Virus record (IMG/VR): IMGVR_UViG_3300042387_002469
Location: 1-47,509 of that record
Length of the DNA: 47,509 nt
Source of the DNA: a virus
Direction: 5' to 3' (one strand)
Shown here: positions 5,135-47,308 of the stretch, piece after piece
Layout of the letters: each line of letters begins with the position of its first letter
Numbering within the stretch: position 1 is the first letter of the stretch
Translations under genes and position numbers: made by a program
The notes under the pieces: model-generated
Seen by the model: only the letters and a program-made list of their open reading frames with translations
What the model was told of the DNA's origin: nothing
The model's database searches: none

Positions 5135-7075
<1,941 letters not shown>

Positions 7076-14623: not shown

Positions 14624-14629
14624 AAAGTT

Positions 14630-15925
14630 ATGGACAAACCAGTATTTGTAATTAGTTGCCCAATCGACACTTATAGTGGATATGGAGCACGTTCTCGCGA
14701 TATCGTTAAAGCGATTATTGAAATGGATAAATATGACGTTAAGATTTTATCTCAACGTTGGGGAGCAACTCCATTTGGATTTATCCAAGCACACCCTGAA
14801 TGGGAATTTTTAACCCAACATATTTTAAATTCCCCTCAACTCCCAGCACAACCTGAAATTTGGATGCAAATTACGGTTCCAAATGAATTTCAACCAATAG
14901 GAAAATTTAATATTGGATGTACAGCAGGAATTGAAACAACAGTAGCACCAGCTGAATGGGTTGAAGGATGTGGTCGTATGAATTTGATTTTAGGTTCTTC
15001 TGAACACACAATCAAAGTACTTAAAGAAAGTAAATTTGAAAAACGTGACCAAAAAACAAACCAACCAGTAGGATTTATTGAGTGGAAAGGTGATAATAGT
15101 GAAGTAATTTTTGAAGGTGCTAACACAGACATTTACAAACCAATCAAATCAACTTTTGATTTATCTAATGTAAAAGAAGAATTTGCTTATCTATTTGTAG
15201 GACATTGGATCCCAGGACAATTAGGTGAAGATAGAAAAAATGTAGGTTTGCTTATAAAAGCATTTTACGAAACATTCAAAAACAAATCCAAAAAACCAGC
15301 TTTAATTTTAAAAACATCTCAAGTAGGTTCCTCTTATATGGACCGAGATGAATTAATTAAGAAAATTCAAGCAATTAGAGCAACTGTAAAATCAAACAAT
15401 ATCCCAAATGTTTATCTGTTACATGGTGAATTTACAGATGAAGAAATGAATCAAATCTATAACCACTCTAAAGTTAAAGCTATGGTTAGCTTAACTAAAG
15501 GAGAAGGATTTGGTCGTCCATTACTCGAATTTTCACTTGTAAACAAACCAATTATCACAACAAATTGGAGTGGACATACAGATTACCTAAACCCAGAATT
15601 TACAACACTTCTACCAGGTACAATGACAAATGTTCATGAGTCAGCTGCAAATCATATGTTGATGAAAGAAGCTGAATGGTTTAGTGTAGATACAGGTCAT
15701 GTAGGACACTATTTAAAAGATGTATTTGAAAATTATAAAGGATATGCTGAAAAAGCAAAACGTCAAGGTTTCCAATCACGTACCAAATTCTCGTTTGACG
15801 CAATGAAAGAAAAACTTGATAAGCTATTCACTGAAAAAATTCCTGAATTTCCAAAACAAGTTCAATTGCAGTTACCTAAATTGAAAAAAATTGAATTACC
15901 AAAACTTAAAAAAGTAGAACAATAA
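14630..15925 (+). CDS. GT-B glycosyltransferase (GT4-like)
   Basis: A 431-aa glycosyltransferase. It opens VISCPIDTYSGYGARSRDIV, and the donor half has HSKVKAMVSLTKGEGFGRPLLEF followed by PIITTNWSGHTDYL. The C-terminal 40 residues form a repetitive Lys/Leu/Pro tail (LQLPKLKKIELPKLKK) that may bind membrane or a partner. Its stop overlaps the next start by one base (taATG). It is a different subfamily from 13184 although adjacent. Confidence 0.85.
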   Translation: MDKPVFVISCPIDTYSGYGARSRDIVKAIIEMDKYDVKILSQRWGATPFGFIQAHPEWEFLTQHILNSPQLPAQPEIWMQITVPNEFQPIGKFNIGCTAGIETTVAPAEWVEGCGRMNLILGSSEHTIKVLKESKFEKRDQKTNQPVGFIEWKGDNSEVIFEGANTDIYKPIKSTFDLSNVKEEFAYLFVGHWIPGQLGEDRKNVGLLIKAFYETFKNKSKKPALILKTSQVGSSYMDRDELIKKIQAIRATVKSNNIPNVYLLHGEFTDEEMNQIYNHSKVKAMVSLTKGEGFGRPLLEFSLVNKPIITTNWSGHTDYLNPEFTTLLPGTMTNVHESAANHMLMKEAEWFSVDTGHVGHYLKDVFENYKGYAEKAKRQGFQSRTKFSFDAMKEKLDKLFTEKIPEFPKQVQLQLPKLKKIELPKLKKVEQ

Positions 15926-16389
15926 TGCAACACGAAGAAATCATTAATTGTCCTAAATCAGGAGGTGACTTGTGCTATAAAGTACAAGTTGCCCCTGAAA
16001 TTTATAACTACATGAGTTTATCTTGTGGTTTTTGGACAAACTCATTTATGACTGAAGACCATGAATTTTATATGCAACAAATGGAAACATTGCCTGAGTT
16101 GTATAAAGATTTAGCTTGGAAAGATCCTCAAACAGGTTTAATTTGGTTACCAAATACTATCAACAATCTTGAACAAGGTATGGTATTTGCTAATGGTACA
16201 AACGCTTCAAACTGGAAATGGGCTGCTGTTAAAGCAATTGAAATCCCTAAAAAAGAACAGAAAAACCACCCAATCCCAGGTAAACCAGGAGAATTTATGA
16301 AATTCAAAATGGATATGAAAAACATGCAACTTTTTGAAGAGCGTGATTATATTGAAGCCCTTTCGTATATTGGAATATTACCAAATTAA
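15925..16389 (+). CDS. Protein of unknown function in glycan cluster
   Basis: A 154-aa protein wedged between glycosyltransferases with a one-base overlap upstream and 5 bp downstream. It is rich in Trp, Met and Tyr (WLPNTINNLEQGMVFANG, NASNWKWAAVKAIEIP), with no recognised catalytic motif. The tight spacing suggests a partner of its neighbours, but the function is not determined. Confidence 0.75.
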   Translation: MQHEEIINCPKSGGDLCYKVQVAPEIYNYMSLSCGFWTNSFMTEDHEFYMQQMETLPELYKDLAWKDPQTGLIWLPNTINNLEQGMVFANGTNASNWKWAAVKAIEIPKKEQKNHPIPGKPGEFMKFKMDMKNMQLFEERDYIEALSYIGILPN

Positions 16390-16394
16390 GATAC

Positions 16395-17018
16395 ATGAAA
16401 ATAAGTTATGCTATCACAGTATGTAATGAATTTAAAGAAATTCAACGTTTAGTGCACTTTTTGCTTCAACACAAACGCATACAAGACAATATTGTGATTT
16501 TATTTGATGAAGCAAATGGTGACCCTGAAGTGGAGGCATTCCTTCGCTCCCACTCCCAAAATGGAGAGTTTATGTGGCATAAAGGAAAATTTGATCGCCA
16601 TTTTGCAGACTGGAAAAACAAACTATCCAGTTTTTGCAAAGGCGATTATATTTTCCAAATTGACGCTGATGAAATCCCAAATGAAAACCTAATTGCTGTT
16701 TTACCTGAATTATTAGAAGAAAACGAAAACATTGATGTTTTCCTAGTCCCTCGAGTAAACACAGTAGAAGGTTTAACTCCCGAACACATTGCAAAATGGG
16801 GTTGGAGAGTAAATGATGAAGGCTGGGTTAATTGGCCTGATTATCAATGGCGAATCTGGAAGAATAAACCTGAAATTCAGTGGGTAAATAAAGTACATGA
16901 ACGTTTAGATGGATTTAAAATGTATACAGCAATGCCAGATGTAGAATATTTTGCTTTATATCACCCAAAAACAATTGAAAAACAAGAAAAACAAAATCAG
17001 TTATACGATACAATTTAA
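16395..17018 (+). CDS. GT2-family glycosyltransferase
   Basis: A 207-aa single-domain GT-A fold enzyme. ISYAITVCNEFKEIQRLV is the nucleotide-binding opening; FQIDADEIP carries the D-x-D motif near 95-99. Downstream, WPDYQWRIWKN and a HERLDGF-type segment match the family of short glycan transferases that act on O-antigen-like structures. Donor unknown. Confidence 0.82.
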   Translation: MKISYAITVCNEFKEIQRLVHFLLQHKRIQDNIVILFDEANGDPEVEAFLRSHSQNGEFMWHKGKFDRHFADWKNKLSSFCKGDYIFQIDADEIPNENLIAVLPELLEENENIDVFLVPRVNTVEGLTPEHIAKWGWRVNDEGWVNWPDYQWRIWKNKPEIQWVNKVHERLDGFKMYTAMPDVEYFALYHPKTIEKQEKQNQLYDTI

Positions 17019-17021
17019 GTT

Positions 17022-18341
17022 ATGGAAGAAATTTTAAAATTAGTAGAAGAGTTTATTAAAGAAAAAGACTCTAAAAAAGAATGGATTGCTGGAAGAGATT
17101 TAGTACAATATGCAGGTAATTATTTTGATGAAAAAGAATATGTAGCTGCTGTTAAAACTTTATTAGGTGGTTGGTTAGTATTAAATCAAGAAGGTATTCG
17201 TTTCGAATCTCGTTTTCCTAAACGTTTAGGTAAAAAATTAGGTATTTTAACCAATAGTGGTTCAAGTGCTAACTTATTAATGTTAGCCGCTTTAACATCT
17301 AAACGAGGTATGAATTTACCTAAAGGGACTAAAGTATTAACTCCAATTGCAGGATTTCCAACCACTATTAACCCTATTCTCCAATTAGGATTTACCCCAG
17401 TATTTGTAGACATTGAATTAGATTCATTAAATTTGGATTTAGATCAAGTAGAACAAAAATTAAAAGAAGATCCTGAAATTAAAGTAATCACATTTGCTCA
17501 CGTGTTAGGTAATCCACCAAACATGGATCGTTTAATGGAACTTATAGAAAAATACAATTTGATTCTTCTTGAAGATTGTTGTGATGCTTTAGGTTCAACA
17601 TATAAAGGACAAATGCTTGGTTCATTTGGCAAAATGGCTAGCTGCTCTTTCTACCCAGCACACCACATTACAATGGGTGAAGGTGGATTTGTAGCTTGTA
17701 ATGATATGGAAACAGAACGTATCCTAAGAAGCTTTAGAGATTGGGGTCGTGGTTGTTACTGTGTAGGTAAACAAAACCAACTTGAATGTGGTATGTGTAA
17801 CCAACGCTTCAATAATTGGCTACCAGCATTACCAGACGATGTATTTGATCACAAATATGTTTATGAAGAAATTGGTTACAATTTAAAACCAATTGAAATG
17901 CAAGCTGCTATGGCATTTATTCAAATGCAAAAACTAGAAGAAATTGGACAAATTCGTCGTAAAAACCATAAATTGATTACTTCAATATTTGAAAAATATA
18001 GCGAATATTTCATTTTACCTAAAGCAACTGAACATTCTGACCCAGATTGGTTTGCAGTAGCATTAACAGTAAAAGATGGAGCTGGATTTACACGTGCTGA
18101 ATTTTGTCAATTCCTAGAAGCAAATAAAATCCAAACACGTCCTTACTTTGCAGGTAACATTATGTTACAACCAGCATATGAAGGAATCATGGATGCAGAA
18201 CAAGTAATTAAAGACTTTCCAGTTGCAAGAAAAGTAACTACAGATACATTCTTCTTAGGTTGTAGCCCAGTTATTACAGAAGAGCAAATTGAATATATTG
18301 GTACAATCGTAGATAAATTTTTTAACACGTTAAATAAATAA
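17022..18341 (+). CDS. rfbH: RfbH-type PMP-dependent 3-dehydrase (DegT family)
   Basis: Predicted CDP-4-keto-6-deoxyhexose 3-dehydrase, which removes the C3 hydroxyl on the route to 3,6-dideoxyhexoses. The 439-aa length fits RfbH/E1. DegT/StrS fold: GILTNSGSSANLLML (79-ff), EDCCDALGS near 184-191. The usual PLP lysine is replaced by His in SFYPAHHITMGEGG (H214-H215), the hallmark of this dehydrase group, and cysteines C245, C247, C256 and C259 fit the [2Fe-2S] cluster. The matching reductase (E3) is not in the window and may be host-supplied. Confidence 0.9.
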   Translation: MEEILKLVEEFIKEKDSKKEWIAGRDLVQYAGNYFDEKEYVAAVKTLLGGWLVLNQEGIRFESRFPKRLGKKLGILTNSGSSANLLMLAALTSKRGMNLPKGTKVLTPIAGFPTTINPILQLGFTPVFVDIELDSLNLDLDQVEQKLKEDPEIKVITFAHVLGNPPNMDRLMELIEKYNLILLEDCCDALGSTYKGQMLGSFGKMASCSFYPAHHITMGEGGFVACNDMETERILRSFRDWGRGCYCVGKQNQLECGMCNQRFNNWLPALPDDVFDHKYVYEEIGYNLKPIEMQAAMAFIQMQKLEEIGQIRRKNHKLITSIFEKYSEYFILPKATEHSDPDWFAVALTVKDGAGFTRAEFCQFLEANKIQTRPYFAGNIMLQPAYEGIMDAEQVIKDFPVARKVTTDTFFLGCSPVITEEQIEYIGTIVDKFFNTLNK

Positions 18342-18344
18342 ACC

Positions 18345-19049
18345 ATGAAAAAATATTTAATCCTTACATATTCTACAGGCCAAACAGAACTAACATCCTA
18401 TACATACCCTTTTTTAGAAAGATACTGTGAAAATCATAATATTGATCTTCTTATTACAAGAGAAAAACCTTTTCATATAAAAGAAAAATTTGACCAACAG
18501 AATCAAGAATGGGCTTTAGGTGGAGGAGAAAGACTATACGCATATGATTTATTTAACCTATATGATAGAATATTATGGATAGGGTCAGATGTGCTAGTAC
18601 AACCTTATGCGCCTAATATTTTTGTAGAAACTCCAACAGGGTATGTAAGTGGGTTTGTAGAACATAGAAAAGGAGAACCTCATCACGCTGGGGATATTTG
18701 TGGAGATTGCTATAATGCTTTTGGAATACTTCCTGATCAGTATATTAATATTGATGTAATGATGGTAGATAAAGAATTAAAAGAAATATATAATTATAAT
18801 AACAAAGATTTAATAAATAATATACATAAAGGAAAATGGGTGTATCAAGATTATTTTAATTATTACATTAAAAATAATAATATCCCATTATTTGATTTAG
18901 GATATAAATGGAATTGTATGATTTCAAAATATCTTTATACAAATACTCCTCTTCCTAATGATTGGTATTTTATGCATGTCACTGGAATAAGTGGGGAACA
19001 AAGGATAAATTTTTTAAAGAATTATTTAACTTCAAATGGAATGATATGA
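18345..19049 (+). CDS. Glycosyltransferase-like protein, GT8-type pattern
   Basis: A 234-aa GT-A-like protein. It opens YLILTYSTGQTELT; the segment YDLFNLYDRILWIGSDVLVQP has the position of a DxD site but reads S-D, as in some GT8-like enzymes, and the late HVTG (near 217-220) is a common metal-binding His position in that fold. Overlaps the next gene by 4 bp. AT-richer than the genes before it. Activity is plausible, not proven. Confidence 0.65.
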   Translation: MKKYLILTYSTGQTELTSYTYPFLERYCENHNIDLLITREKPFHIKEKFDQQNQEWALGGGERLYAYDLFNLYDRILWIGSDVLVQPYAPNIFVETPTGYVSGFVEHRKGEPHHAGDICGDCYNAFGILPDQYINIDVMMVDKELKEIYNYNNKDLINNIHKGKWVYQDYFNYYIKNNNIPLFDLGYKWNCMISKYLYTNTPLPNDWYFMHVTGISGEQRINFLKNYLTSNGMI

Positions 19050-19915
19050 TAACATTTTGTATTTCAACATACAACAATCTTCCTTATCTTAAGTTAGCTA
19101 TTGAATCTGTTAGGAAAAATAGTTACTTTAAAGATGCCCCATTTATCATTCATGCTGAAAATTGTACTGATGGAACAAATGAATGGTTATTTGAAAATCA
19201 AGATAAATATGATTTAACTTTACTTGTTGAACCTGAAAATATTAAAGTTCGAGGTATTGGAGGGGGAATGAATATATGTGCTGATCATGTTAAAACAGAA
19301 TATATAATGTTTCTCCATTCAGATTTTTATGTGAGTAAAAATTGGGATTTAGCCTGTTTAGAACAATACCAAAAAGAAAACAGAGACAAACTTTGGATTA
19401 GCTCACTCAGATTAGAACCAGCAATGTTCCCAGATCATATTCATTATTTAAATGGATCTAGACCACAACCTTTAGATAATATCATTGTTCCAAAAGATTA
19501 TTTTGGAGAATATTATCACAATTTTGAAAAAGAAACCTTTGAAGAATATGCAGAAGAACTTAAATTGTTAAACAATTACACAATATTTAAAGGACAAGGT
19601 GTAAGTGGACTCATATCTAAAAAAGATTGGGATTTAATTGGAGGGAATGACCCACAATTTTCTCCAACAAGTTGGGAGGATAAGGATTTGTTTTTAAGAA
19701 TGATTCAAAACGGATTTGATTTTATTCTTACATCTCAAAGTGTAGTTTATCATTTTGGAGCAAGAGGAAGTCATAGATTAGAAGAAAATGAAGGTAAAAC
19801 TTCCCAAAGACAAATTGAAGCTGAAAATATGAATGCTCAAAAATTCATAAAAAAATGGGGTGGTCTCCCAAAATATAATGAACATATTATGATCATAGGA
19901 ATAAATAAAATATAA
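19046..19915 (+). CDS. GT2-family glycosyltransferase
   Basis: A 289-aa product from the ATG at 19046, which overlaps the previous stop (ATGA); a start at 18962 would overlap 88 bp in another frame. GT-A opening MITFCISTYNNLPYLKLAI, then IIHAENCTDGTNEWL and FLHSDFYVS, where H-S-D takes the DxD place. A later W-E-D-K-D-L-F-L-R segment is a typical GT2 acceptor-side motif. Similar in layout to 27775. Confidence 0.82.
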   Translation: MITFCISTYNNLPYLKLAIESVRKNSYFKDAPFIIHAENCTDGTNEWLFENQDKYDLTLLVEPENIKVRGIGGGMNICADHVKTEYIMFLHSDFYVSKNWDLACLEQYQKENRDKLWISSLRLEPAMFPDHIHYLNGSRPQPLDNIIVPKDYFGEYYHNFEKETFEEYAEELKLLNNYTIFKGQGVSGLISKKDWDLIGGNDPQFSPTSWEDKDLFLRMIQNGFDFILTSQSVVYHFGARGSHRLEENEGKTSQRQIEAENMNAQKFIKKWGGLPKYNEHIMIIGINKI

Positions 19916-19918
19916 ATA

Positions 19919-20887
19919 ATGGAAAAAATAGTAATAGCAAACGTAATGAGGTCAAAAAACAAACAATCGTTTTTTGCTCTCCATCAAATAAATAAAAAAA
20001 TTAAAGAATATGATTCTTCTATTGAAGTTGAATTTAATATTATTTGGGATAAAGAAATAGAAAATCCTACCACAGAGGATAAAAAATGGATTGATTTAAT
20101 AGATTCTAGTTTTAATGTAGTTTCATATGATAAACAATTTTTTATAGACTATTGTGTTGAAGCTTATGGAATGGATTTAGAAAAAGTTAATACTGACTTT
20201 AATAATTTCTTTGCTATATATGTTATATTGTTATTCCATTATTTAAGACGAGTTAAACTTTATGATTACTGTTTAAGATATGATGATGACATTTTAATTA
20301 ATTATGATTTTGCTGATGTTATTGAACTCATGCTTAATAAAACCGCAGTCCTAATTTCAGAACCATTTAATGCTAATTGTGATAAAGTTTTACTCCAAAA
20401 AATTATAAATGTGTATGGCCAAGAAGCAATTAACCTATATCAACAACGTAATCCTCAAATATTAGGATTTAATAGCGGATTTCAAGGAATTGATTTATCA
20501 ATTTATGATGATTTCTTATCAGCTGATAGATTTGAATTAATGCTTAGTTTGTTTGAGTTTAAATCTATATTTGATGAAAACGGAGAAGAAATATGGGGGC
20601 CTGAGAGATTTGTTATTGACACCCAAGAACAGTCATATGCTTCATCAATGAACTTGATTAAGGCCAAAAATATTCATATACTAGACCCAGAAAAATATTA
20701 TGTAGCACCAAATTTTGGATCACATTCTCATTTTGGTACATTAGATCCTGAAGATGAACTTGGAGGATGGGGATGTTGTTTAAATTCAAAAATTTCCCAT
20801 TTTATTGGTCATACTCGAGGAAAAGGTAAACCAAAACAATTTTTAGATAAAGTAGATGAGTATTTAAAAGCAAATAATTTTTTATAA
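19919..20887 (+). CDS. Putative glycosyltransferase with DDD motif
   Basis: A 322-aa protein with a GT-A-like pattern: YCLRYDDDILINYDF gives a D-x-D near residue 120, NSGFQGIDLS lies at the usual acceptor-loop place, and the C-terminus has HFIGHTRGKGKPKQF. No family number can be assigned from inspection. Two bases after the previous stop and one before the next gene, so it belongs to the same unit. Confidence 0.7.
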   Translation: MEKIVIANVMRSKNKQSFFALHQINKKIKEYDSSIEVEFNIIWDKEIENPTTEDKKWIDLIDSSFNVVSYDKQFFIDYCVEAYGMDLEKVNTDFNNFFAIYVILLFHYLRRVKLYDYCLRYDDDILINYDFADVIELMLNKTAVLISEPFNANCDKVLLQKIINVYGQEAINLYQQRNPQILGFNSGFQGIDLSIYDDFLSADRFELMLSLFEFKSIFDENGEEIWGPERFVIDTQEQSYASSMNLIKAKNIHILDPEKYYVAPNFGSHSHFGTLDPEDELGGWGCCLNSKISHFIGHTRGKGKPKQFLDKVDEYLKANNFL

Positions 20888-20888
20888 T

Positions 20889-21857
20889 ATGACAAAAGTA
20901 GTATACGTAACGGGATGTTTAGGATTTATAGGATCCTATGTAACAAGAAAATGCCTTGATAAAGGATGGTATGTAAAAGGAGTAGATAAAATTACTTACG
21001 CCGCTAATAAAGATTTATTAGAGGAATTTAAATCATACCCAAATTTCTCATTTGTTCATTGTGATATTAATGAATTAAAGTTTTTATATGATTGTGATTT
21101 TGTAATTAATACAGCCGCTGAAACACACGTTGGTAATTCAATTGCTAGTAGTGCTGAATTTGTTAAGTCAAATATTGATGGAGTTCATAATTTACTTGAA
21201 TTAATTAAAAACCATAGAGGAGAAAATGCTCAAAAACCAGTATTACTCCACTTTAGTACAGATGAGGTATATGGCGATATTGAAGAAGGTGCTCATGATG
21301 AAGAACACTTACTCAAACCATCTAACCCATACTCAGCAACCAAAGCAGCAGCTGATATGTTAGTTATGGCTTGGGGTAGAACACATAAAGTACCTTACAT
21401 GATTATTCGTCCAACAAATAATTATGGTATTGGACAATATGTTGAAAAATTAATTCCTAAAGCAGTTAAATTATTAAGCTTAGGACGTAAAATTCCACTT
21501 CATAACCATGGAACACCTTATAGAAATTGGTTACACGCCTCTGATACTGCTGAAGCTGTAATTACATTGATTGAAAAAGGTCAAATTGGAGAAATTTACA
21601 ATGTAGCTGGTGGTTTTGAACAGCAAAATATTGAAACCATTAAACAAGTAATTACTGAATTCGGTCAAATTATAAATTGGGAAGATTTTCACAATATTGA
21701 TCACTATGTAGATTTTTCTTGCCATCGACCAGGACAAGATGTTCGTTATGCTTTAGATGATTCTAAACTAAGAGCTTTAGGATGGGAACCAAAATGCGTG
21801 TTTTCTGAAGAAATTACTCGTATAGTTAGTTATTACAAAAGCAAATTTATATGGTAA
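20889..21857 (+). CDS. rmlB: NDP-glucose 4,6-dehydratase (RmlB-like)
   Basis: Extended short-chain dehydrogenase, 322 aa. NAD site G9-x2-G12-x2-G15 (GCLGFIG), DKITYA after strand 2, NTAAETHV, catalytic STDEVYG and Y-S-A-T-K, and a late TPYRNWLHASDTAEAV. All match dTDP-glucose 4,6-dehydratases. It makes a 4-keto-6-deoxyhexose, the substrate type needed by the RfbH-like dehydrase at 17022. The nucleotide (dTDP or CDP) is not decided by sequence. Overlaps the next gene by 7 bp. Confidence 0.88.
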   Translation: MTKVVYVTGCLGFIGSYVTRKCLDKGWYVKGVDKITYAANKDLLEEFKSYPNFSFVHCDINELKFLYDCDFVINTAAETHVGNSIASSAEFVKSNIDGVHNLLELIKNHRGENAQKPVLLHFSTDEVYGDIEEGAHDEEHLLKPSNPYSATKAAADMLVMAWGRTHKVPYMIIRPTNNYGIGQYVEKLIPKAVKLLSLGRKIPLHNHGTPYRNWLHASDTAEAVITLIEKGQIGEIYNVAGGFEQQNIETIKQVITEFGQIINWEDFHNIDHYVDFSCHRPGQDVRYALDDSKLRALGWEPKCVFSEEITRIVSYYKSKFIW

Positions 21858-23602
21858 AAATTAGTGATGTTATAGTAGATTTTCTATTAAAAAACAATAT
21901 TGAAGTTGTATTCGGAATTATAGGTTCTGCTAATTCACATATATACGATTCCATAAATAAACATCCTAATATTAAATTAGTACCCGTCCATCACGAGCAA
22001 GTAGCCGTGATGGCAATGGGTGCTTATTATCGCTCAAGTGGTAAAATGGCGGTAGCATTAGTTACTGCTGGTGGTGGTTCTTCCAATTCATTCACTGGTA
22101 TTCTATCTAATTGGGCTGATTCCATCCCAGGAATTATTATTTCAGGACAAGAACAATCATATTACATTGATCAATATTCAGATATGAGAATGTATGGTAT
22201 TCAAGGATATGATTCAGTAGACACGTTTTCAAAACATACTAAAATGTCTGTTCGAATCACTAAAGAAAACTTGTACGAGACATTCAATAATGCTTTTCAA
22301 ACAACTCAAATTAATAGACCAGGTCCTGTATTTTTGGAAGTACCATTTGATGTTCAAGGACAGATGGTTGAAGAACAACCTATTACTCCTTATAAAAAAT
22401 TAGGTAATCCAATGTTAAGTCCAAAAACATTAGACTTGATAGATTTACTTAACCAAAGTAAAAAACCAGTTGTAATTGGGGGGCATGGTGTCAAATTATC
22501 CCAATCAGAAAAATTATTTAAACAGTTTATTGAACAACATAATTTACCTACAATACTAACTTGGTCAGCAGTAGACTTACTCGAAGAAACTCATCCAAAC
22601 AATTATGGCCGCTCAGGAGTTCAAGGACAGCGCTCAGCTAATTTTATTGTTCAAAATTGTGACTTATTAATTGTAATGGGAAGTAGATTATCTTTATTAC
22701 AAACAGGATATTCTAGAGCAGATTTTGCTCCACATGCAAAAATAGTTCATATTGATATAGATCCAACCGAAACAAATAAATTTGATGGATTATCAATCAA
22801 TGAAGATATTGGAAATATTTTACATAATTTAATTTCAATCGATTCAATTAAAGTAGATACTACAGATTGGAAATCATATTGTGATGATATTCGAAACAAA
22901 TATCCTCGAGTGATGCCTGAGCATTTAGCTGATCCTACTAATTCATATACATTTATGGATTGGTTTTCAAATAAAGTACCTGATAACTATACTATTGTTA
23001 CAGATATGGGAACAGCATTATTAAGTGGTTTCTATGGGTTTAATATTAAATCAAATCAAAAGATGTTTACATCACTTGGTTTAGGTGAAATGGGATATGG
23101 AATTGCAGCTGCAGTTGGAGCTGGATTTGGCCCAAACCCAGTAATGTGTTTAAATTGTGATGGTGGGATGATGATGAATCTCCAAGAATTACAAACTATC
23201 AAAACCCAAAATCTCCCAGTTAAAATAGTTATCTTTAATAATGATGGTTATTTGATGATTAAACATACTCAAAACATGTTATTTGGAGGAACTAAAACAT
23301 GTGTTGATAAGAAAACAGGCGTTGAACTTCCAGATTATAAAAAAGTAGCAGAAGCATTTGAATATGAATACTATACTATTGATCAAGTAGATGAATTTTT
23401 ATCATCACCAAATCAAGGTATTTTAGAAGTATTCATGGATCCAAACCAAGAATTTATACCTAAAGTAAGAGGTATTAAAAATAAAGATAATACAATTCAA
23501 GCAGGTCTTTTGGAAGAAATGTCTCCTTTATTATCTTTAGACAATATTAAAGAAGCAATGATTTCTGGAATACATGAACGAAGTAATACAGTAGAAAGAT
23601 GA
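21851..23602 (+). CDS. Thiamine-diphosphate enzyme, acetolactate synthase-like
   Basis: A 583-aa TPP enzyme of the acetohydroxyacid-synthase family. The activating Glu is E49 (HHEQVAVMAMG). The ThDP/metal motif NCDGGMMMN begins near 434 and ends with N-N-D-G-Y near 463. The domain order is Pyr, central, PP. In a sugar cluster, the closest functional model is YerE, which adds a two-carbon unit to a keto-deoxysugar, rather than branched-chain amino-acid synthesis. Followed directly (4-bp overlap) by an acylating aldehyde dehydrogenase and aldolase pair. Confidence 0.85.
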   Translation: MVKISDVIVDFLLKNNIEVVFGIIGSANSHIYDSINKHPNIKLVPVHHEQVAVMAMGAYYRSSGKMAVALVTAGGGSSNSFTGILSNWADSIPGIIISGQEQSYYIDQYSDMRMYGIQGYDSVDTFSKHTKMSVRITKENLYETFNNAFQTTQINRPGPVFLEVPFDVQGQMVEEQPITPYKKLGNPMLSPKTLDLIDLLNQSKKPVVIGGHGVKLSQSEKLFKQFIEQHNLPTILTWSAVDLLEETHPNNYGRSGVQGQRSANFIVQNCDLLIVMGSRLSLLQTGYSRADFAPHAKIVHIDIDPTETNKFDGLSINEDIGNILHNLISIDSIKVDTTDWKSYCDDIRNKYPRVMPEHLADPTNSYTFMDWFSNKVPDNYTIVTDMGTALLSGFYGFNIKSNQKMFTSLGLGEMGYGIAAAVGAGFGPNPVMCLNCDGGMMMNLQELQTIKTQNLPVKIVIFNNDGYLMIKHTQNMLFGGTKTCVDKKTGVELPDYKKVAEAFEYEYYTIDQVDEFLSSPNQGILEVFMDPNQEFIPKVRGIKNKDNTIQAGLLEEMSPLLSLDNIKEAMISGIHERSNTVER

Positions 23603-24462
23603 AAATAAAAGTAGCAATTTTAGGTACAGGAAATATAGGTACTGACCTAATGTTAAAATCAATTAAAACAGATTTTATCGATGTAGTAGCATTTGTAGGT
23701 CGAAGATTAGATTCCCCTACAATGCAAATAGCCCAAGAAAAAGGTATATTAACCTCAGACCAAGGTATTAACTATTTTATCAATAATCCAAAATGTTGTG
23801 ATGTTGTATATGATTGTACTAGTGCTGCTGATGCTAGAGAACATGCTAAAGTGTTTAAAGAGCAAGGAATTAAAGTAATTGACTTGACCCCAGCTAAAGT
23901 AGGAGATATGTGTGTGCCTGATATTAACTCAGATTTGATTTTAACTGATGATAATGTAAATATGATTACTTGTGGAGGACAAGCTTCAATGCCAATGTTA
24001 CATTTAATTTCAAAACATTGTACAGGATTAGAATATGTTGAGATTGTATCTCAAATTGCATCTAAAAGTGCGGGTATGGCAACTCGAATTAATGTTGACA
24101 ATTACATTGCAACTACAAGAAAAGCAATTACTAAGTTTACAGGATGTAAAAACACCAAAGTAATCCTTAACCTAAACCCAGCTGAACCTTGTGTTGATAT
24201 GCAAACAACAATCTTTATTAAAACTAAAGATATTAATTTTAATCATTTAACAGAAGAGATTGCTGAAAAAATTGAGGAATTAAAAACATATATCCCATAT
24301 TATGAGTTAGTATTACCTCCAACTATGAATGAAAATGGAGTAGTAGTTCTAAGTATTCGAGTAAAAGGTACAGGTGATTATCTTCCAGAATATGCAGGTA
24401 ATTTAGATATTATCAATTGTGCCGCAATTAAAATTACAGAAAAATTAAGTCAAAACATATGA
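23599..24462 (+). CDS. mhpF: Acylating acetaldehyde dehydrogenase
   Basis: Interconverts acetaldehyde + CoA + NAD with acetyl-CoA. Rossmann site AILGTGNIG (7-14) and the catalytic Cys in MITCGGQASMP (C125) match DmpF/MhpF; 287 aa is slightly short of the roughly 310 aa usual. DmpF enzymes work as a channeling complex with the aldolase encoded next (4-bp overlap). In a glycan cluster the enzyme may run in reverse, giving acetaldehyde for the aldolase. Confidence 0.87.
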   Translation: MKIKVAILGTGNIGTDLMLKSIKTDFIDVVAFVGRRLDSPTMQIAQEKGILTSDQGINYFINNPKCCDVVYDCTSAADAREHAKVFKEQGIKVIDLTPAKVGDMCVPDINSDLILTDDNVNMITCGGQASMPMLHLISKHCTGLEYVEIVSQIASKSAGMATRINVDNYIATTRKAITKFTGCKNTKVILNLNPAEPCVDMQTTIFIKTKDINFNHLTEEIAEKIEELKTYIPYYELVLPPTMNENGVVVLSIRVKGTGDYLPEYAGNLDIINCAAIKITEKLSQNI

Positions 24463-25460
24463 AAAATCTAATCATTACTGATTCAAGTCTTAGAGATGGA
24501 AATCATAGTGTTAAACACACAATCAGTTTAGATAGTATTGAAAAATATTGTCAATTTGCAGACAAAGCAGGTATTCCAATTGTTGAAGTAGGACATGGTA
24601 ATGGTTTAGCAGCTTCATCTTTATTAATTGGTAAATCTCCTAATACAGATAAGGAAATGCTTACTACAGCAAGAAAAAACCTTAAAAACTCTAAATTAGG
24701 TGTTCATACTATTCCAGGGTTATCAACAATTGATGATGCTAAATTAGCTATGGATTATGGAGTAGATGTATTTAGAGTAGCAACTCATTGTACTGAAGCT
24801 ACTTTATCTAAATCCCACATTGAATATTTAGCTAAAACAGATAAAACTGTTTATGGTGTATTAATGATGTCTGCTTTGATTACTGCTGAAGAATTAGCTG
24901 AACAAGCAAAAATTATGGAAGATTATGGTGCTGAGGCTATTATTATTATGGATTCAACAGGTACTTATCTACCACGTGACGTAAGAGAAAGAATTAGTTT
25001 ATTAAAATCTAGATTGAATATTAAAGTTGGTTTCCATGCTCATAATAATTTAGGATGTGCAGTAGCTAATTCATTAGCCGCAGTAGAAAGTGGAGCTGAA
25101 TTAATTGATGCATGTATTCGAGGATTTGGAGCAGGAGCAGGTAATGCACCATTAGAACTTATTCTCCCGGTATTTGAAAAAATAGGTTACACTACAGGTA
25201 TTAGTTTTGAAGAAACCATTAAAGAAGCAGACCGTGTAATGGATTATTTAGTACCATCTGCTCCCATTACTACCCCAATTAATGTATTAACAGGATTAAC
25301 TCGCTTATTTTCAGGATTTGAAAAACCAATTGTAAAAGCATCTAAATTATATGGTATCGAGTATTCATCTCTTATCTTTGAATTAGGTAATAGAAAATTA
25401 GTTGCTGGTCAAGAAGATTTAATTTTAGAAGTTGCTCAAAAATTAAAAGAAAATAAATGA
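24459..25460 (+). CDS. mhpE: 4-hydroxy-2-oxovalerate aldolase
   Basis: Class II pyruvate aldolase, 333 aa. D8 and the SLRDGNHSVKH segment (R12, D13, with His residues) form the active-site entrance; GFHAHNNLG near 192-200 supplies the metal-binding H-x-H; D-S-T-G-T and IRGFGAGAGNAPLE complete the family pattern. It cleaves or, in reverse, makes 4-hydroxy-2-oxopentanoate from pyruvate and acetaldehyde. Genetically fused in layout to mhpF upstream, and overlaps the next gene by 4 bp. Confidence 0.9.
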   Translation: MKNLIITDSSLRDGNHSVKHTISLDSIEKYCQFADKAGIPIVEVGHGNGLAASSLLIGKSPNTDKEMLTTARKNLKNSKLGVHTIPGLSTIDDAKLAMDYGVDVFRVATHCTEATLSKSHIEYLAKTDKTVYGVLMMSALITAEELAEQAKIMEDYGAEAIIIMDSTGTYLPRDVRERISLLKSRLNIKVGFHAHNNLGCAVANSLAAVESGAELIDACIRGFGAGAGNAPLELILPVFEKIGYTTGISFEETIKEADRVMDYLVPSAPITTPINVLTGLTRLFSGFEKPIVKASKLYGIEYSSLIFELGNRKLVAGQEDLILEVAQKLKENK

Positions 25461-26368
25461 GAATTTTAATTACAGGTGGAAATGGATTCTTAGGATCTAA
25501 TATTGTTAGGAAACTAATTAAAGAAAACCATAATGTGTATGTTTTCTCTAAATCAACTAATAATATTCAAGACATTTTAAATAAAGTTAAATTTAATTTT
25601 AGTTCTAATAACGAATTAGTTAATTTTAAGAAAGAAATTTTAGATTTTTCTCCCGAAATAGTAATTCATTGTGGTTGGAGTGGTGGAAATAGTTATCAAG
25701 ATGTAAATGACTTAAACCAATTATATGAAAATGTAGAATCTAGTATTAAATTACTAGAAATTCTCAATCAACTTCCAAACAAACCTAAATTTATTGGATT
25801 TGGCAGTTTTTCAGAATATGGAAATTTACCAATACCCATAAATGAAAATAATATAGAGCAACCAATAAATTTATATGGATTATCTAAATTAACATTTAAA
25901 AATTATAGTAAAATGTTATGTAATAATTATGGGATGGAATGGGTTTGGGTTAGACCTTGTTACATATATGGTCCAAATGATGTAAAAACTAGATTGATTC
26001 CATTATTGATTAATAAATTATTAAATAATCAAAAAATTGTTTTAGATGATTGTAATAAAATTATAGATTATCTTTACATTGATGATTTTGTTAACTATTT
26101 TTACAGTTTAATCCAAAACCCCTCCAATGGAGTTTATAACATATGCTCAGGAAAACAATATAATTTAAAAGAACTAATTCAAAAAATTCATCAACTTTCC
26201 CAAAGTAAAAGTAAAATTTCATTTGACTCAAAATTAAATCGTAAATTTACTTCATCCCACATATGTGGAGATAATACAAAAATTACTACACAAAGCAATT
26301 ACTCCCCTCAAACAGATATTAACCAAGGGGTTTTATTAACAATTAACTATTATAAAAAATTATTATGA
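25457..26368 (+). CDS. NAD-dependent epimerase/reductase (extended SDR)
   Basis: A 303-aa extended SDR. NAD site ITGGNGFLGS (5-14), active-site Y-x3-K as NLYGLSKLTFKN, WVRPCYIYGP and DYLYIDDFVNYF all fit sugar epimerases/reductases of the RfbJ/RfbE/YerF type. Its place right after the aldolase suggests reduction of the keto group of the branched sugar, but epimerase activity is equally possible. Markedly AT-rich, with many Asn and Ile residues. Confidence 0.82.
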   Translation: MRILITGGNGFLGSNIVRKLIKENHNVYVFSKSTNNIQDILNKVKFNFSSNNELVNFKKEILDFSPEIVIHCGWSGGNSYQDVNDLNQLYENVESSIKLLEILNQLPNKPKFIGFGSFSEYGNLPIPINENNIEQPINLYGLSKLTFKNYSKMLCNNYGMEWVWVRPCYIYGPNDVKTRLIPLLINKLLNNQKIVLDDCNKIIDYLYIDDFVNYFYSLIQNPSNGVYNICSGKQYNLKELIQKIHQLSQSKSKISFDSKLNRKFTSSHICGDNTKITTQSNYSPQTDINQGVLLTINYYKKLL

Positions 26369-27003
26369 AAGATCTTATTACTATAAAAGACAATAAATGG
26401 GTATGGCCTGCAAATGATGAAAACAGCTGGAAAGGCCAAAATGAATTTCAGGATCTTGCTAAATGGGTTCTTCCTTATGTTAAGGAAAAAAATATTATGA
26501 TTCAAGCAGGAGGTAATTGTGGATTTATGTTAAGTAATTTTGTTGATCACTTTAATACCATATATACATTTGAACCAGATCCAATTAATTTTTATTGTTT
26601 AAACCAAAATATTACTTCTCAGAATGTTATTAAGATGCAATGTTGTTTAGGAAATGATTCAACTCCCGTTTCTACCCAACATCTTATTAGACCTGATAGA
26701 CCTAACGATATTGGTGGAGTCCATATTGCAGGCCCTGGATTCACCCCAGTAATTGTAATTGATACTCTTAATCTTCCAGGATGTGATTTAATTCAATTAG
26801 ATGTTGAAGGATATGAGTTAAATGCTCTTTTAGGCGCTGAAAAAACTATTAAGAAATATTCTCCAGTACTATGTGTAGAATTTTGTGAAAAATGGTTAAA
26901 TAGGTATGATACTTCATCTGATAAAATATTAGGTTTATTAGAAGAATGGGGGTATATTCAAGTAGAAGAATATGGAGTTGATAAAATTTTTATTAAAAAA
27001 TGA
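26365..27003 (+). CDS. FkbM-family methyltransferase
   Basis: A 212-aa SAM-dependent methyltransferase. IMIQAGGNCGFMLSNFVD is the SAM-binding strand with a G-x-G-like loop (FkbM type V-D-x-G-A-N replaced by I-Q-A-G-G-N), followed by YTFEPDPINF (acidic residue after strand 2) and LIQLDVEGYELNALLGAE, the diagnostic FkbM segment. It probably O-methylates a sugar hydroxyl. Overlaps neighbours by 4 bp on both sides. Confidence 0.88.
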   Translation: MKDLITIKDNKWVWPANDENSWKGQNEFQDLAKWVLPYVKEKNIMIQAGGNCGFMLSNFVDHFNTIYTFEPDPINFYCLNQNITSQNVIKMQCCLGNDSTPVSTQHLIRPDRPNDIGGVHIAGPGFTPVIVIDTLNLPGCDLIQLDVEGYELNALLGAEKTIKKYSPVLCVEFCEKWLNRYDTSSDKILGLLEEWGYIQVEEYGVDKIFIKK

Positions 27004-27791
27004 AAATATTAATTACAGGTGGAAATGGTTATATTGCTAAAAGTTTACATTCTTATCTATATTCAAAATATGATGTAACATTAGTATCTAGAGTTGATCT
27101 TAACCTTACTCGAAGAGAAGAGGTTCAACATTACTTTAAAGATAAATATTTTGATGTGGTAATTCATACCGCTGTAAAAGGAGGTAATAGACTTAACCCA
27201 CTTGAAGGACCAGATGTTGTACTTACAAATTTATTAATGTATGATAATTTAATGCGTTGTAGGGATAAGTTTGATAAATTAATCCATTTTGGTTCAGGTG
27301 CAGAAGAAGAAGCAAATTCCCCTTATGGATTTAGCAAACATATTATAAATCAATTAATGAAATTAGATTCAAAAAGTATAAATGTAAAAATTTATGCGGT
27401 TTTTGATGAAAATGAATTAAATACTAGGTTTATTAAAAGTAATATTTTAAGATATATTAATCGAGAGGATTTGAATGTTTATCAAGATAAACAAATGGAT
27501 TTCTTTTATATGAAAGATTTAGTTTCTATGATTGAATGGTTACTTAATCAACGTGAAGAAGAATTTCCAATTCAAGAAATTAATTGTAGTTATCTAAAAA
27601 AATATACTTTGTTACAAATAGCTGAAATTATTAATTCATTAGGTGATTATAGAGTAGGAATACGATTAGAAGATGAAATTGAAGATAAAGCATATTGTGG
27701 AATTCATCCTGTTATGCCATTTAATTTGATTGGATTAGAACAAGGAATTAAAGAAACTTATAATATATTAAAAAATGTCTCAACTAATTAG
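27000..27791 (+). CDS. SDR-type epimerase/reductase (GDP-fucose synthase-like)
   Basis: A 263-aa extended SDR, opening KILITGGNGYIAKSLHSYL with the NAD site; HTAVKGGNRLNP and HFGSGAEEE precede a Y-G-F-S-K motif (SPYGFSKHIINQL). Shorter than usual in the C-terminal substrate domain. The substrate is not known. It overlaps the next glycosyltransferase by 17 bp. Together with 25457 it gives the cluster two SDR reductases/epimerases besides the dehydratase. Confidence 0.78.
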   Translation: MKILITGGNGYIAKSLHSYLYSKYDVTLVSRVDLNLTRREEVQHYFKDKYFDVVIHTAVKGGNRLNPLEGPDVVLTNLLMYDNLMRCRDKFDKLIHFGSGAEEEANSPYGFSKHIINQLMKLDSKSINVKIYAVFDENELNTRFIKSNILRYINREDLNVYQDKQMDFFYMKDLVSMIEWLLNQREEEFPIQEINCSYLKKYTLLQIAEIINSLGDYRVGIRLEDEIEDKAYCGIHPVMPFNLIGLEQGIKETYNILKNVSTN

Positions 27792-29055
27792 TTTTTGTAT
27801 TAACACTGCTCGAAATGAACTAAATCATGTTAAACTATTGTTTAAGTCTTTAGAACAAAATTTATCAACTTTAGAACATGAAATTGTAGTATTTGTAGAT
27901 AGTGATAATCAAGGAACAACAGAGTGGTTATTAACCCAAAAACAAATATTCCCAAATCTTAAAATCCTTAAAAACGAGTTGCCTATTCCATATGGTTACC
28001 AGAGAAACATTAATGAAATGTTTGAATCTGCTTCAAACGAAATTGTTTCTTATTTACAATCAGATATGGTAATATGTAAAAACTATGATCTAGAGGTGCT
28101 TAAGTATTTAGAACCAAATATGATTCTTTGTTCCACTAGAATTGAACCCCCACTTCATGGTAATTCAGGAGAAAAGATTACATATGACTTTGGTTTAGAC
28201 CCTAAAGGATTTAATTTAGAATCATTTACACAATATGCTGAGGGACAAAAACAAGAAAAAACAACAGAATATTTCTTTGCACCATTTACATTGTATAAAG
28301 ATACTTGGAATTCAATTGGGGGGCATGATACTATATTTAGACGTTCAAGAGAAGATTCAGATGTTTTAACTCGGTTAGTTTTAAATGATACAAAGATTAT
28401 TCAAGTTTGGAATGCTTTAGTTTATCATTTTACCTGCACTTCTAGTAGAGGTAAAAATTGGTTTGATCCAAATAATCAAGAAGCCCAAGATCGAGCAAGG
28501 TTACAACAATTTGCTGATCAAATTGAAATGGGTAAATTCTTTAGAAAATGGGGTAAATTTAACCATTCTACTGATAAAATTAAACATTATGAAATATCTG
28601 CTAATATTTTAGGTCAAAATTCTAATTTGAGTAAATTTATAGCGTTTGAAAGTTTTTTTGATAAAGTATTCGTTGAAAATGAATCTTTAATCCCTTCAAT
28701 TCAAGAGGAATATGATAGACAGCAAACAGTTGCTAATCAACTTTTGAATATATCATTTAAAGATTGGGAAGAATATAACTACATGTTTAATCAATTAAAA
28801 ACTAGTGATAGAGTATACCCATTAAGTGAAAGTAAAGGAGATATTATAGTAGAATTTAATATTGATTTGACTGATGAAATTTATATGAATAGTTTCTTTA
28901 TTCATTTGCAAGATGTAATTGATCAAAATGAAGTTGGAGTTTTTGAATATGGTCCTTTTAAAATTATCATTAATGAAAAAGAAAACAAATCAAAAGACAG
29001 AATATTTATCTCCAACCCTAAAGTAAAACCAGAACACCTTTATAAAATTTTGTAA
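27775..29055 (+). CDS. GT2-family glycosyltransferase with C-terminal extension
   Basis: A 426-aa protein. GT-A core in the first 270 residues: LISFCINTARNELNHVKLL, VVFVDSDNQGTTEWL, SYLQSDMVICKNYD (S-D in the DxD place), and RSREDSDVLTRLVLN followed by HFTC. The remaining 150 residues have no recognised motif and may contact the acceptor or another protein. Last large gene of the glycan cluster. Confidence 0.82.
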   Translation: MSQLISFCINTARNELNHVKLLFKSLEQNLSTLEHEIVVFVDSDNQGTTEWLLTQKQIFPNLKILKNELPIPYGYQRNINEMFESASNEIVSYLQSDMVICKNYDLEVLKYLEPNMILCSTRIEPPLHGNSGEKITYDFGLDPKGFNLESFTQYAEGQKQEKTTEYFFAPFTLYKDTWNSIGGHDTIFRRSREDSDVLTRLVLNDTKIIQVWNALVYHFTCTSSRGKNWFDPNNQEAQDRARLQQFADQIEMGKFFRKWGKFNHSTDKIKHYEISANILGQNSNLSKFIAFESFFDKVFVENESLIPSIQEEYDRQQTVANQLLNISFKDWEEYNYMFNQLKTSDRVYPLSESKGDIIVEFNIDLTDEIYMNSFFIHLQDVIDQNEVGVFEYGPFKIIINEKENKSKDRIFISNPKVKPEHLYKIL

Positions 29056-37378: not shown

Positions 37379-37720
37379 ATGGCTAAAAAAGAAAAACACA
37401 CAATTGAAGTAAAGTATTTGGATTTGAAAACACGTTTCAAAGCAGGTACCATAAGTATAGAAGAGGTAGATCAAATTACATGTGAACTAATTGCTGAATT
37501 AGCTGTATTAACAGTAAAAGGTTATACTGAAATCAACGGTACATCAATCGACTTGATGAAAGATAGAGTTTGGTGGATTGTAGAAAAAGCAGGACTACTT
37601 CCAGAATATAGAGACGATGAGGACTTCGTTGATGAGGAAATTGATGAAGAAGATGATTACTACAACGATGATGAGTTTGAGTATGCAATTGAAATAGACG
37701 ATAGTAAATTTTATAAGTAA
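37379..37720 (+). CDS. Protein with very acidic C-terminus
   Basis: A 113-aa protein: a helical first 75 residues and an end dominated by Asp/Glu (DEEIDEEDDYYNDDEF). Such tails can mimic DNA, as in anti-restriction or anti-nucleoid proteins, but no specific homology is seen. Overlaps the next start by one base. Confidence 0.65.
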   Translation: MAKKEKHTIEVKYLDLKTRFKAGTISIEEVDQITCELIAELAVLTVKGYTEINGTSIDLMKDRVWWIVEKAGLLPEYRDDEDFVDEEIDEEDDYYNDDEFEYAIEIDDSKFYK

Positions 37721-38070
37721 TGGTAAATGTAGGAAACCTATTAATAGGTATGTTTTTTGGATTTTTGGCTCAAGTGGCAACATTTTACCAATTACAAGGT
37801 CCACTTAAGTTTGAATGGTTCAAAAATCACTATTGGTTAACAGTATTAATGGGTATTCCTATTTCAATGTTATTCATGTATTCAGTGAAAAACATGGTTA
37901 TAGCATTTGATGGTCAAATGTGGCCGTCACGTTTAATTGGATTTTCAATTGGTGCAATTGTATTTAGTTGGTTGAGTTGGGCTATATTTAATGAGCCAAT
38001 AACAATGAAAACATTTATTTGTTTGATGTTAGCGCTTGCAATTCTATTAGTTCAACTTTTTGTAAAATAA
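37720..38070 (+). CDS. Four-span membrane protein, SMR/DMT-like layout
   Basis: A 116-aa protein with hydrophobic segments near 6-24, 39-58, 71-90 and 97-115, the layout of small multidrug-resistance-type proteins. The loop KFEWFKNHYWLTV and PSRLIGFSIG are notable. Transport is not shown. Confidence 0.68.
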   Translation: MVNVGNLLIGMFFGFLAQVATFYQLQGPLKFEWFKNHYWLTVLMGIPISMLFMYSVKNMVIAFDGQMWPSRLIGFSIGAIVFSWLSWAIFNEPITMKTFICLMLALAILLVQLFVK

Positions 38071-44563: not shown

Positions 44564-44594
44564 AAGCCCTTAATTAAAAGGGCTTTCGTATATT
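44564..44594 (+). promoter_or_regulatory. Fused terminator-promoter cassette
   Basis: Hairpin AAGCCCTT / AAGGGCTT with loop AATTAA (44572-44577), T-run shared with TTTCGTATATT (44584-44594), then TCGGG and TATAAAAAG. The stem differs from the other two copies by compensated changes (C-G to T-A). Confidence 0.82.
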
Positions 44595-46336: not shown

Positions 46337-46492
46337 ATGTATAGTTTAGATTGTGATTATTTTGTAGAAGAGTTTAGTTCAATAGAAAAATTATTGTACT
46401 ATGTGGAACAAGTAGGGATGGACCCCAACTATGAAATAACACGAAACGGAAAATGTACTGGGGAGTATTTAAGTGAATTAATTAGTTATTAA
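46337..46492 (+). CDS. Small acidic protein
   Basis: A 51-aa ORF (MYSLDCDYFVEEFSSIEKLL...), with an A/G-rich leader. Acidic, with several Tyr. No motif recognised. Confidence 0.6.
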   Translation: MYSLDCDYFVEEFSSIEKLLYYVEQVGMDPNYEITRNGKCTGEYLSELISY

Positions 46493-46502
46493 AATTAAGG
46501 TT

Positions 46503-46565
46503 ATGGCAGTGTTTTTTATTATGTTATTAGTAGCATTTATTATGGTTCATTACAATGAGGATTAA
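46503..46565 (+). CDS. 20-aa membrane peptide
   Basis: MAVFFIMLLVAFIMVHYNED: one hydrophobic helix. Same AAGGTTATG start context as its neighbours. Confidence 0.45.
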   Translation: MAVFFIMLLVAFIMVHYNED

Positions 46566-47130
46566 CAAAAATCATCAATGAACCTCGTCAATGAATATCG
46601 TCAAAAAAACGAAAATCAACGCATATAAACGCGGAACAGGAATCGTCAATGATAATCATCATCAAAACGGAAATCAACGAAGATCATCGTCAAGGAAATC
46701 ATCACATGTGTGGAATGAAAATCAACATGGGGAACGTCAATTGTCAATAATGATCATCACCAAATGAAAATCGTCGGAATGTATGTGGAATGTTGTTTGT
46801 CCACGAAGGGTACACAAAGGTGTTGGGTCTAACCCCTATGTTGATCGTCCACGTCCCTCTTCACCCTTTCCAAAAATATATACAAAAATTATGAACAAAC
46901 ACGTGTCCCCCACGGGGGAAATGGGGGATGGGGGGATGAAAATTATTAAAAAATGGTTGTCACCCTGGATTATTTTTCGTATCTTCCCCATATGTATTAA
47001 TGAACAAAATGATGTTCTCCGTCATGGAAATAGAACAGTGATTAGCAACAGCGTATAGGGCACAAAAGTAACCACCCAGTAAACAAAACACGGAAATCGT
47101 CACGATGTTTCTCGTCATGGAAATCAACAA
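46566..47130 (+). repeat. Noncoding block of degenerate ATCRTCA / GGAAATCAAC repeats
   Basis: No convincing gene. Short motifs recur at irregular spacing: ATCATCA, ATCGTCA, CGTCAATGA, GAAAATCAAC, GGAAATCAACG, GGAAATCATCA, GAAAATCGTCGG, CGGAAATCGTCA, CGTCATGGAAATC. At least fifteen copies occur, dense at 46566-46790, then again at 47015-47130. Between lies a C- and G-rich stretch with GGGGG runs (46914-46936) and a weak promoter-like TTTCGTATCTT (46976). Base composition and motif content differ from all other parts. A replication origin, pac-like signal or protein-binding array is possible. Confidence 0.6.
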
Positions 47131-47135
47131 AAAGA

Positions 47136-47158
47136 AGCTTGCATAGGGAATGCAGGCT
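47136..47158 (+). other. Hairpin before a promoter
   Basis: Stem AGCTTGCA / TGCAGGCT (one T-G pair) with loop TAGGGAA; no T-run directly after it. It marks the end of the repeat block. Confidence 0.55.
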
Positions 47159-47168
47159 ATCAGACTGC

Positions 47169-47179
47169 TTTCGTATATT
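47169..47179 (+). promoter_or_regulatory. Early-type phage promoter
   Basis: TTTCGTATATT, 9 bp before the ATG at 47189. Confidence 0.75.
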
Positions 47180-47188
47180 GAAATAAAA

Positions 47189-47308
47189 ATGAAAACAATA
47201 GAAGTAACTCAGGAAGAAATTTATCAAGCAACTAGACCTAACATATACAGGAATAGAAAAAAGTATACTAGAAAAAGTAAACATAGGAATAAGTCTTGTG
47301 AAGATTAA
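47189..47308 (+). CDS. Small basic protein
   Basis: A 39-aa ORF (MKTIEVTQEEIYQATRPNIY...) with a Lys/Arg-rich tail. Promoter on both sides supports it. Confidence 0.58.
   Translation: MKTIEVTQEEIYQATRPNIYRNRKKYTRKSKHRNKSCED

Follow-up and report, generated by a model that had tools for sequence, protein, structure and literature searches.

What is a repeat-rich, noncoding block doing between tiny genes in the early region of a T4-type phage? The question is raised by positions 46,566 to 47,130 of the virus record IMGVR_UViG_3300042387_002469, which is analysed here as the complete IMG/VR record (the window; 47,509 bases, with no terminal direct repeat of 11-200 bases). An earlier interpretation, made without database searches (the sequence-only reading), had taken this interval to be one repeat block, a candidate origin or binding array. 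We find a noncoding locus, conserved in T4-superfamily phages, that comprises a direct-repeat array, a conserved core, C- and G-runs and a structured RNA; the interval as first drawn merges two neighbouring elements: a DNA site (array, core and C/G-runs) and a structured-RNA gene, which takes up the right-hand third and had gone unseen. As for function, we propose, with a probability of only about 0.42, that array and core form a DNA site at which a protein complex may assemble, most likely a replication origin.

The genome that carries the block belongs to the T4 superfamily: a T4-type family B DNA polymerase and a clamp loader are encoded in the window, and Gp23, the T4 major capsid protein, was searched for in six long relatives and is present in five of them. 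No isolate in INPHARED is close, since the top match of the polymerase, in Microcystis phage Mel-JY01, has just 31% identity. Relatives (L numbers) were found through the 51-codon gene upstream of the block, as the best 80 of 144 in viral contigs; L003, from the first protein scan, was rejected as a chance match in a GC-rich contig. The sequence-only reading had held that absence of the block from close relatives would speak against it; the block is present in L004, L005 and L021. That it is noncoding is borne out by its inner open frames (58 and 91 codons), which differ in length between relatives by amounts not divisible by three and so do not look coding.

Is the repeat cluster itself real? 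The densest 300-bp window for the motif TCRWC (start 46551, + strand) holds 15 sites and the next non-overlapping one on that strand 4, and when the window as a whole was dinucleotide-shuffled 60 times, the count never rose above 9 on either strand; ATCRTCA (8 observed, shuffle maximum 3), AAATCRWC (6 and 3) and AATCRWC (8 and 4) behave likewise. Over the 319 bp left of the core, repeated 7-mers are in excess as direct repeats (z = 7.2) and not as inverted ones (z = -0.8). The repeats are thereby confirmed as real and one-stranded. The sequence-only reading called such motifs absent from the rest of the window, which holds for the dense cluster but not for single motifs: ATCRTCA occurs 18 times on the + strand, 9 of them inside the block (0.11 expected from the remaining window) and 9 outside it, and 16 times on the - strand, never in the block. 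Its companion motif GGAAATCAAC occurs as such just twice in the block. A second-densest TCRWC cluster, at 37451-37750, has 10 sites on the - strand, just over the shuffle maximum.

The motifs form two unequal groups (46572-46771 and 47093-47130), and their spacing is as irregular as first described, running 13, 13, 18, 27, 13, 3, 15, 10, 3, 12, 23, 32, 3 and 14. The earlier view that this is no CRISPR also stands, as the units are degenerate and spaced by 3 to 32, whereas a CRISPR has near-identical repeats and uniform spacers. We also rejected the array as a set of repeated early-promoter boxes: the two have the GGAA part alone in common and, by eye, no -10 partner lies at promoter spacing. 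Among relatives, 26 regions left of the core were tested and 19 show a direct-repeat signal at p<=0.05 (L093, too short for the test, is outside the 26), although the signals in L019 and L079 may be low-complexity A+T repeats. In L026 the unit is a different one (AAACATTACCGATG); the array motif therefore drifts between phages. Direct, one-stranded, drifting and found left of the core in many relatives, the repeats lend indirect support to the earlier suggestion of a putative binding array.

Alignment of relatives revealed a conserved middle segment, the core. When an inner gap of 20-50 was permitted, the exact core pattern was found in 19 contigs, and in all 19 the gap was 35 or 36; the pattern occurs once per record in 19 of the 21 records searched, and the reversed-pattern control gave 0. 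A profile built from 25 core sequences matched 21 of the 80 loci selected through the upstream gene and, in total, 30 distinct loci (the weakest three, L015, L026 and L074, at E above 1e-4), with two matches in no locus and none in reversed sequences. A slightly looser pattern, run against the genomes of 84,980 species of bacteria and archaea (one per species), gave 4 matches, none with a gap of 35 or 36. The sequence of the core drifts while its length hardly changes, as expected of a fixed protein-DNA assembly. Could the core be an RNA hairpin? Its arms, one purine-rich and one pyrimidine-rich, are seemingly complementary but do not coevolve: native pairs of arms average -11.9 kcal/mol and arms swapped between phages -12.3, and 76% of 2000 permutations were as good as or better than the native arms. 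The sole find of RNAalifold in the 25 core sequences, GUAUGUG/UAUAUAC on the + strand (z -3.8), says little because its 3' side hardly varies. Accordingly, we rejected the hairpin and read the core as a DNA element.

No single neighbour gene goes with the core. A gene of the type found left of the block in the window (MYSL type) lies within 2.5 kb upstream in 14 of the 30 loci, and one of the type found on its right (MKTIEV type) within 2.5 kb downstream in 17, counts affected by the truncation of some loci and by the choice of many through the MYSL gene. In two long relatives (174 and 166 kb) the core sits within an early-promoter cluster, and nowhere else in them is as motif-dense. Two observations concern what adjoins the core. 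In L085 an open reading frame (ORF; 6277-6711) resembling a GIY-YIG endonuclease, with a Pfam score just below the cut-off, lies directly to its right, and the core site may therefore be a homing target; in L002 (about 6000-6044) a tiny ORF, roughly MNNGGGCGCGRPKK, follows the core, with similar ones by eye in L088 and L093.

In a competing explanation, a phage regulator bound to the array would turn the RNA gene and nearby early genes on or off, with the core as promoter or operator. The block indeed lies among early-type promoters, about 20 of which are present in the window (for example at 44582, 45156, 46297 and 47306) and share an AGGA ... TTTCGTATATT layout: an AGGAATA upstream box about 27 bp ahead of the TATATT in TTTCGTATATT. 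The layout recurs in relatives and possibly reflects a phage-specific sigma factor or activator. Promoters of a Bacteroidota-like kind and a host among the Bacteroidota are conceivable. By eye, array units often contain GGAA, resembling the promoter upstream box, and in L079 and L081 the core leads straight into an ORF start. On the other hand, there is a single core per record against those 20 or so promoters in the window alone, the core occurs without the RNA in L018, L019 and L022, and no fixed gene follows it; we consider transcription control unlikely, if still worth keeping in view. A single copy per record, repeated short sites and no fixed neighbour gene would suit a pac site, i.e. 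a packaging start bound by the small terminase. T4-type phages are not known to package from a strong fixed site, and the core lies at many distances from contig ends (assembly ends, so that this carries little weight). We regard a packaging role as improbable.

What, then, is the right-hand part of the block? Three helices on the + strand show the compensatory changes within a common structure that mark a structured noncoding RNA. Hairpin H3 is paired in 112 of 112 cells, with compensatory change in six of seven pairs across 16 sequences, and none of 500 shuffles scored as high. Helix E has compensatory change in six of seven pairs and 73.6% of cells paired across 13 sequences; two of 500 shuffles reached its pair count and none its covariation score, but the count leans toward the helix, because E was placed by hand on a tighter alignment after RNAalifold, run on the first MAFFT alignment of the left part of the RNA, had found nothing significant on the two strands (z -1.5 and -1.9). 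Hairpin H1, located in 9 of 19 loci examined through a pattern resembling a hairpin, has compensatory change in three of five pairs among 8 distinct sequences; its pair count was reached by 92 of 500 shuffles and its covariation score by none. For all three helices the cells are not independent events, since some sequences are close relatives. Covariance models run on 90 sources gave 18 matches for H3 and 14 for E, mostly the sequences from which they were built (16 and 13); the new matches were L015 for H3 and L009 for E, and L102 carries the core of L059 in a second record. One convincing match per model was obtained in either of the two long genomes mentioned above.

The RNA belongs to a structured family absent from Rfam 15, no family of which matches the folded part at gathering score; matches elsewhere were to tRNAs alone. 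With E up to 2, nine relatives yielded tRNAs only, and in the block E up to 10 brought up nothing but snoRNA scores at chance level, none of them covering the folded part. Ahead of that part is a candidate promoter, and relatives have, by eye, TTGGAAA at a similar spacing. A second RNA pattern (type B, ACGGCGTAGGTGCGANA) was set aside: of the 15 contigs that carry it, the block context was found in L100 and L130 and not in the other 13. Variation around the helices is also visible. L100, L090, L099 and L125 carry an extra conserved module, GATTATAGCC.AACG.GGCGTTTGAA, between helix E and H3, and L095 and L098 carry another one there, which suggests a modular RNA. In L015 (4920-5322) the CATATGTATAA start and a hairpin similar to H3 come immediately after a tRNA-like sequence, and this may be a variant of the RNA locus. 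Finally, compensatory changes, together with the shuffle tests and the conservation of the core, contradict the idea that the block is chance or low-complexity drift between genes; although the array motif is degenerate and differs between relatives, we give this idea next to no credence.

Are the DNA site and the RNA one thing or two? About 1.3 kb separates the end of the core match (2368) from the start of H1 (near 3700) in L009, and L018, L019 and L022, as mentioned, have the core but not the RNA; core and RNA are separable elements. These observations bear on a further alternative, namely that the block is transcribed as one long RNA in which the array would serve as an unstructured, repeated binding platform (a sponge) ahead of the folded part. 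The repeats do lie on the + strand only, the strand of the RNA helices, and more copies fall inside the RNA region (47093-47130). The distance in L009, the lack of arm-to-arm coevolution in the core and the promoter-like TTG-(about 20)-TAT[AC]TT seen by eye ahead of the folded part all argue against a single transcript, and we find it distinctly unlikely.

We return to array and core as a proposed assembly site, most likely an origin. In the mechanism that we envisage, a protein produced at an early stage of infection would occupy the array sites and spread or loop onto the core; the A+T-rich edge of the core would be opened, replication proteins would load, and replication would start there. 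The RNA would be a separate gene, transcribed rightward from its own promoter and usually placed beside the DNA site. The single copy, the absence of a fixed neighbour gene, the position in the early region, the direct repeats and the A+T-rich edge favour an origin. That edge is short (about 35 bp), and the 30-bp windows starting at 46866-46872 are among the least stable 4-5% of the window. To its right are the G-runs that the sequence-only reading took to interrupt the repeats; they are present, but the intervening stretch also holds the conserved core and most of the RNA. Four of the window's 14 runs of at least five G or C fall here, and in 16 of the 30 loci the 130 bp to the right of the core include at least two runs of four or more G. 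As in iteron-type origins, the repeats cluster in one orientation; the regular spacing of iterons is missing.

Several further results weigh against an origin. A scan of part of the proteins encoded in the window brought no recognisable initiator gene to light. The direct-repeat signal is absent or weak in 7 of the 26 relatives, so the array is not required for the core to persist, and the two might serve different ends. Most 60-bp windows across the block rank on the more stable side, reaching as high as the 99th percentile of the whole window (those starting at 46770, 46800 and 46890 are among the most stable 0.5-2%), so that there is no broad A+T-rich unwinding region. The strand-skew check proposed with the sequence-only reading came out negative: neither GC skew nor third-position skew switches at the block, the latter peaking in the early region around it without a change of sign, with the caveat that all genes run one way and that T4-type replication may leave no switch. 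An origin, as first suggested, is possible and our leading guess, with the skew and the stability of most of the block speaking against it.

How does the block compare with known systems? The namesake phage T4 uses different, promoter-based origins. Its oriE, according to passages of a 2010 review (PMC3016281), has evenly spaced 12-nt repeats of ill-defined role; both it and the block have short direct repeats close to tiny genes, in phages of the T4 type. In the T4 record, however, the repeats near the annotated oriE lie inside the gene 5 coding sequence with a 24-bp period, whereas those of the block are noncoding, irregular and without a motif in common, and homology was rejected; the block's repeats are not within or beside gene 5 or repEA. 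The R-loop origins oriF and oriG combine a promoter with an A+T-rich unwinding stretch, a pairing that the block, with its candidate promoter and short A+T-rich edge, may share, but passages of that review on them describe no repeats (PMC3016281), and the candidate promoter of the block has the A+T-rich edge on its left and is directed away from that edge. The PLE satellite of phage ICP1 needs, for its replication, a noncoding region that carries repeats, according to passages of two papers (PMC7145576, PMC8263062). This parallel is functional only: the repeats of the block are about 13 nt long, in about 15 copies, with no inverted-repeat signal, and no RepA-type gene was recognised.

For the RNA, RNA-based initiation in phage replicons, such as those of mycobacterial prophages (PMC7157519), offers with ColE1 a precedent for a structured RNA beside an origin, again a parallel of function only. 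The RNA is not obviously a primer, because core and RNA can lie 1.3 kb apart. Some ornate RNAs of the GOLLD, ROOL and OLE group are found in phages. Like these ornate noncoding structured RNAs (PMC12286853), the RNA of the block is noncoding and structured, but it is much shorter and has no Rfam match over its folded part. Titles and abstracts, with passages of a few papers, on the motif, related phage origins or RNAs contained nothing on this element. That the block is a new type of phage origin in the T4-type lineage, with array and fixed-length core coupled to an undescribed structured RNA that would prime or control initiation, strikes us as quite doubtful.

The genes on either side are tiny and stand among early-type promoters, as the sequence-only reading had said (Table 1). 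The 51-codon gene has no Pfam match and none in INPHARED; hydrophobic mini-ORFs similar to the 20-codon one are seen by eye in L007, L021, L059 and L086; and the 39-codon gene has a weak match to Pfam DUF7230, below cut-off, and weak matches to PHROGs families of unknown function. Elsewhere, the window holds unusual phage cargo, a run of sugar-related genes at 13184-29055 (glycosyltransferases, a DegT/DnrJ aminotransferase and a thiamine-pyrophosphate enzyme), as well as a phage-borne GroEL-type chaperonin and a GTP cyclohydrolase (5429-7075 and 63-650).

Table 1. Features of the locus and its flanks, in window positions
Feature	Position	Strand	Description	Basis
51-codon gene	46337-46492	+	MYSL...GMDPNYEIT; left flank	
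20-codon ORF	46503-46565	+	hydrophobic; ends just before array	read from sequence
Direct-repeat array	46566-46780	+ only	degenerate; unit about 13 nt (roughly AATGAANATCRTCA); about 15 sites	
Conserved core	46781-46888		GTATGTGG ... TCTAACCC ... CCAAAAATATATACAAAA; near-constant length; one copy per record	
A+T-rich stretch	46866-46901		right edge of core	stability
C-run, then three G-runs	46907-46935	+	CCCCC, GGGGG, GGGGG, GGGGGG; hairpin-capable	
Candidate RNA promoter	46957-46985	+	TTGTCA, 17 bp, TATCTT, then CATATGTAT	read from sequence
Structured RNA	about 46990-47160	+	three helices	compensatory changes
Hairpin H1	47002-47017	+	GAACA/TGTTC	compensatory changes
Helix E	47038-47075	+	47038-47044 with 47069-47075; closes conserved loop GCAACAGCGTATAGGGCACAAAAG	
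Right-hand repeat copies	47093-47130	+	within RNA region	
Hairpin H3	47137-47157	+	GCTTGCA/TGCAGGC, then conserved ...CTGCT	
Early-type promoter	47169-47179	+	TTTCGTATATT; of next gene	
39-codon gene	47189-47308	+	basic; MKTIEV...TRPNIYRNRKKYTRK; right flank	

Conserved and present in single copy, the array and core offer a compact target for asking how T4-type phages choose where copying starts, and the RNA, which lies outside Rfam 15, comes with a candidate promoter and three helices that can be put to the test.
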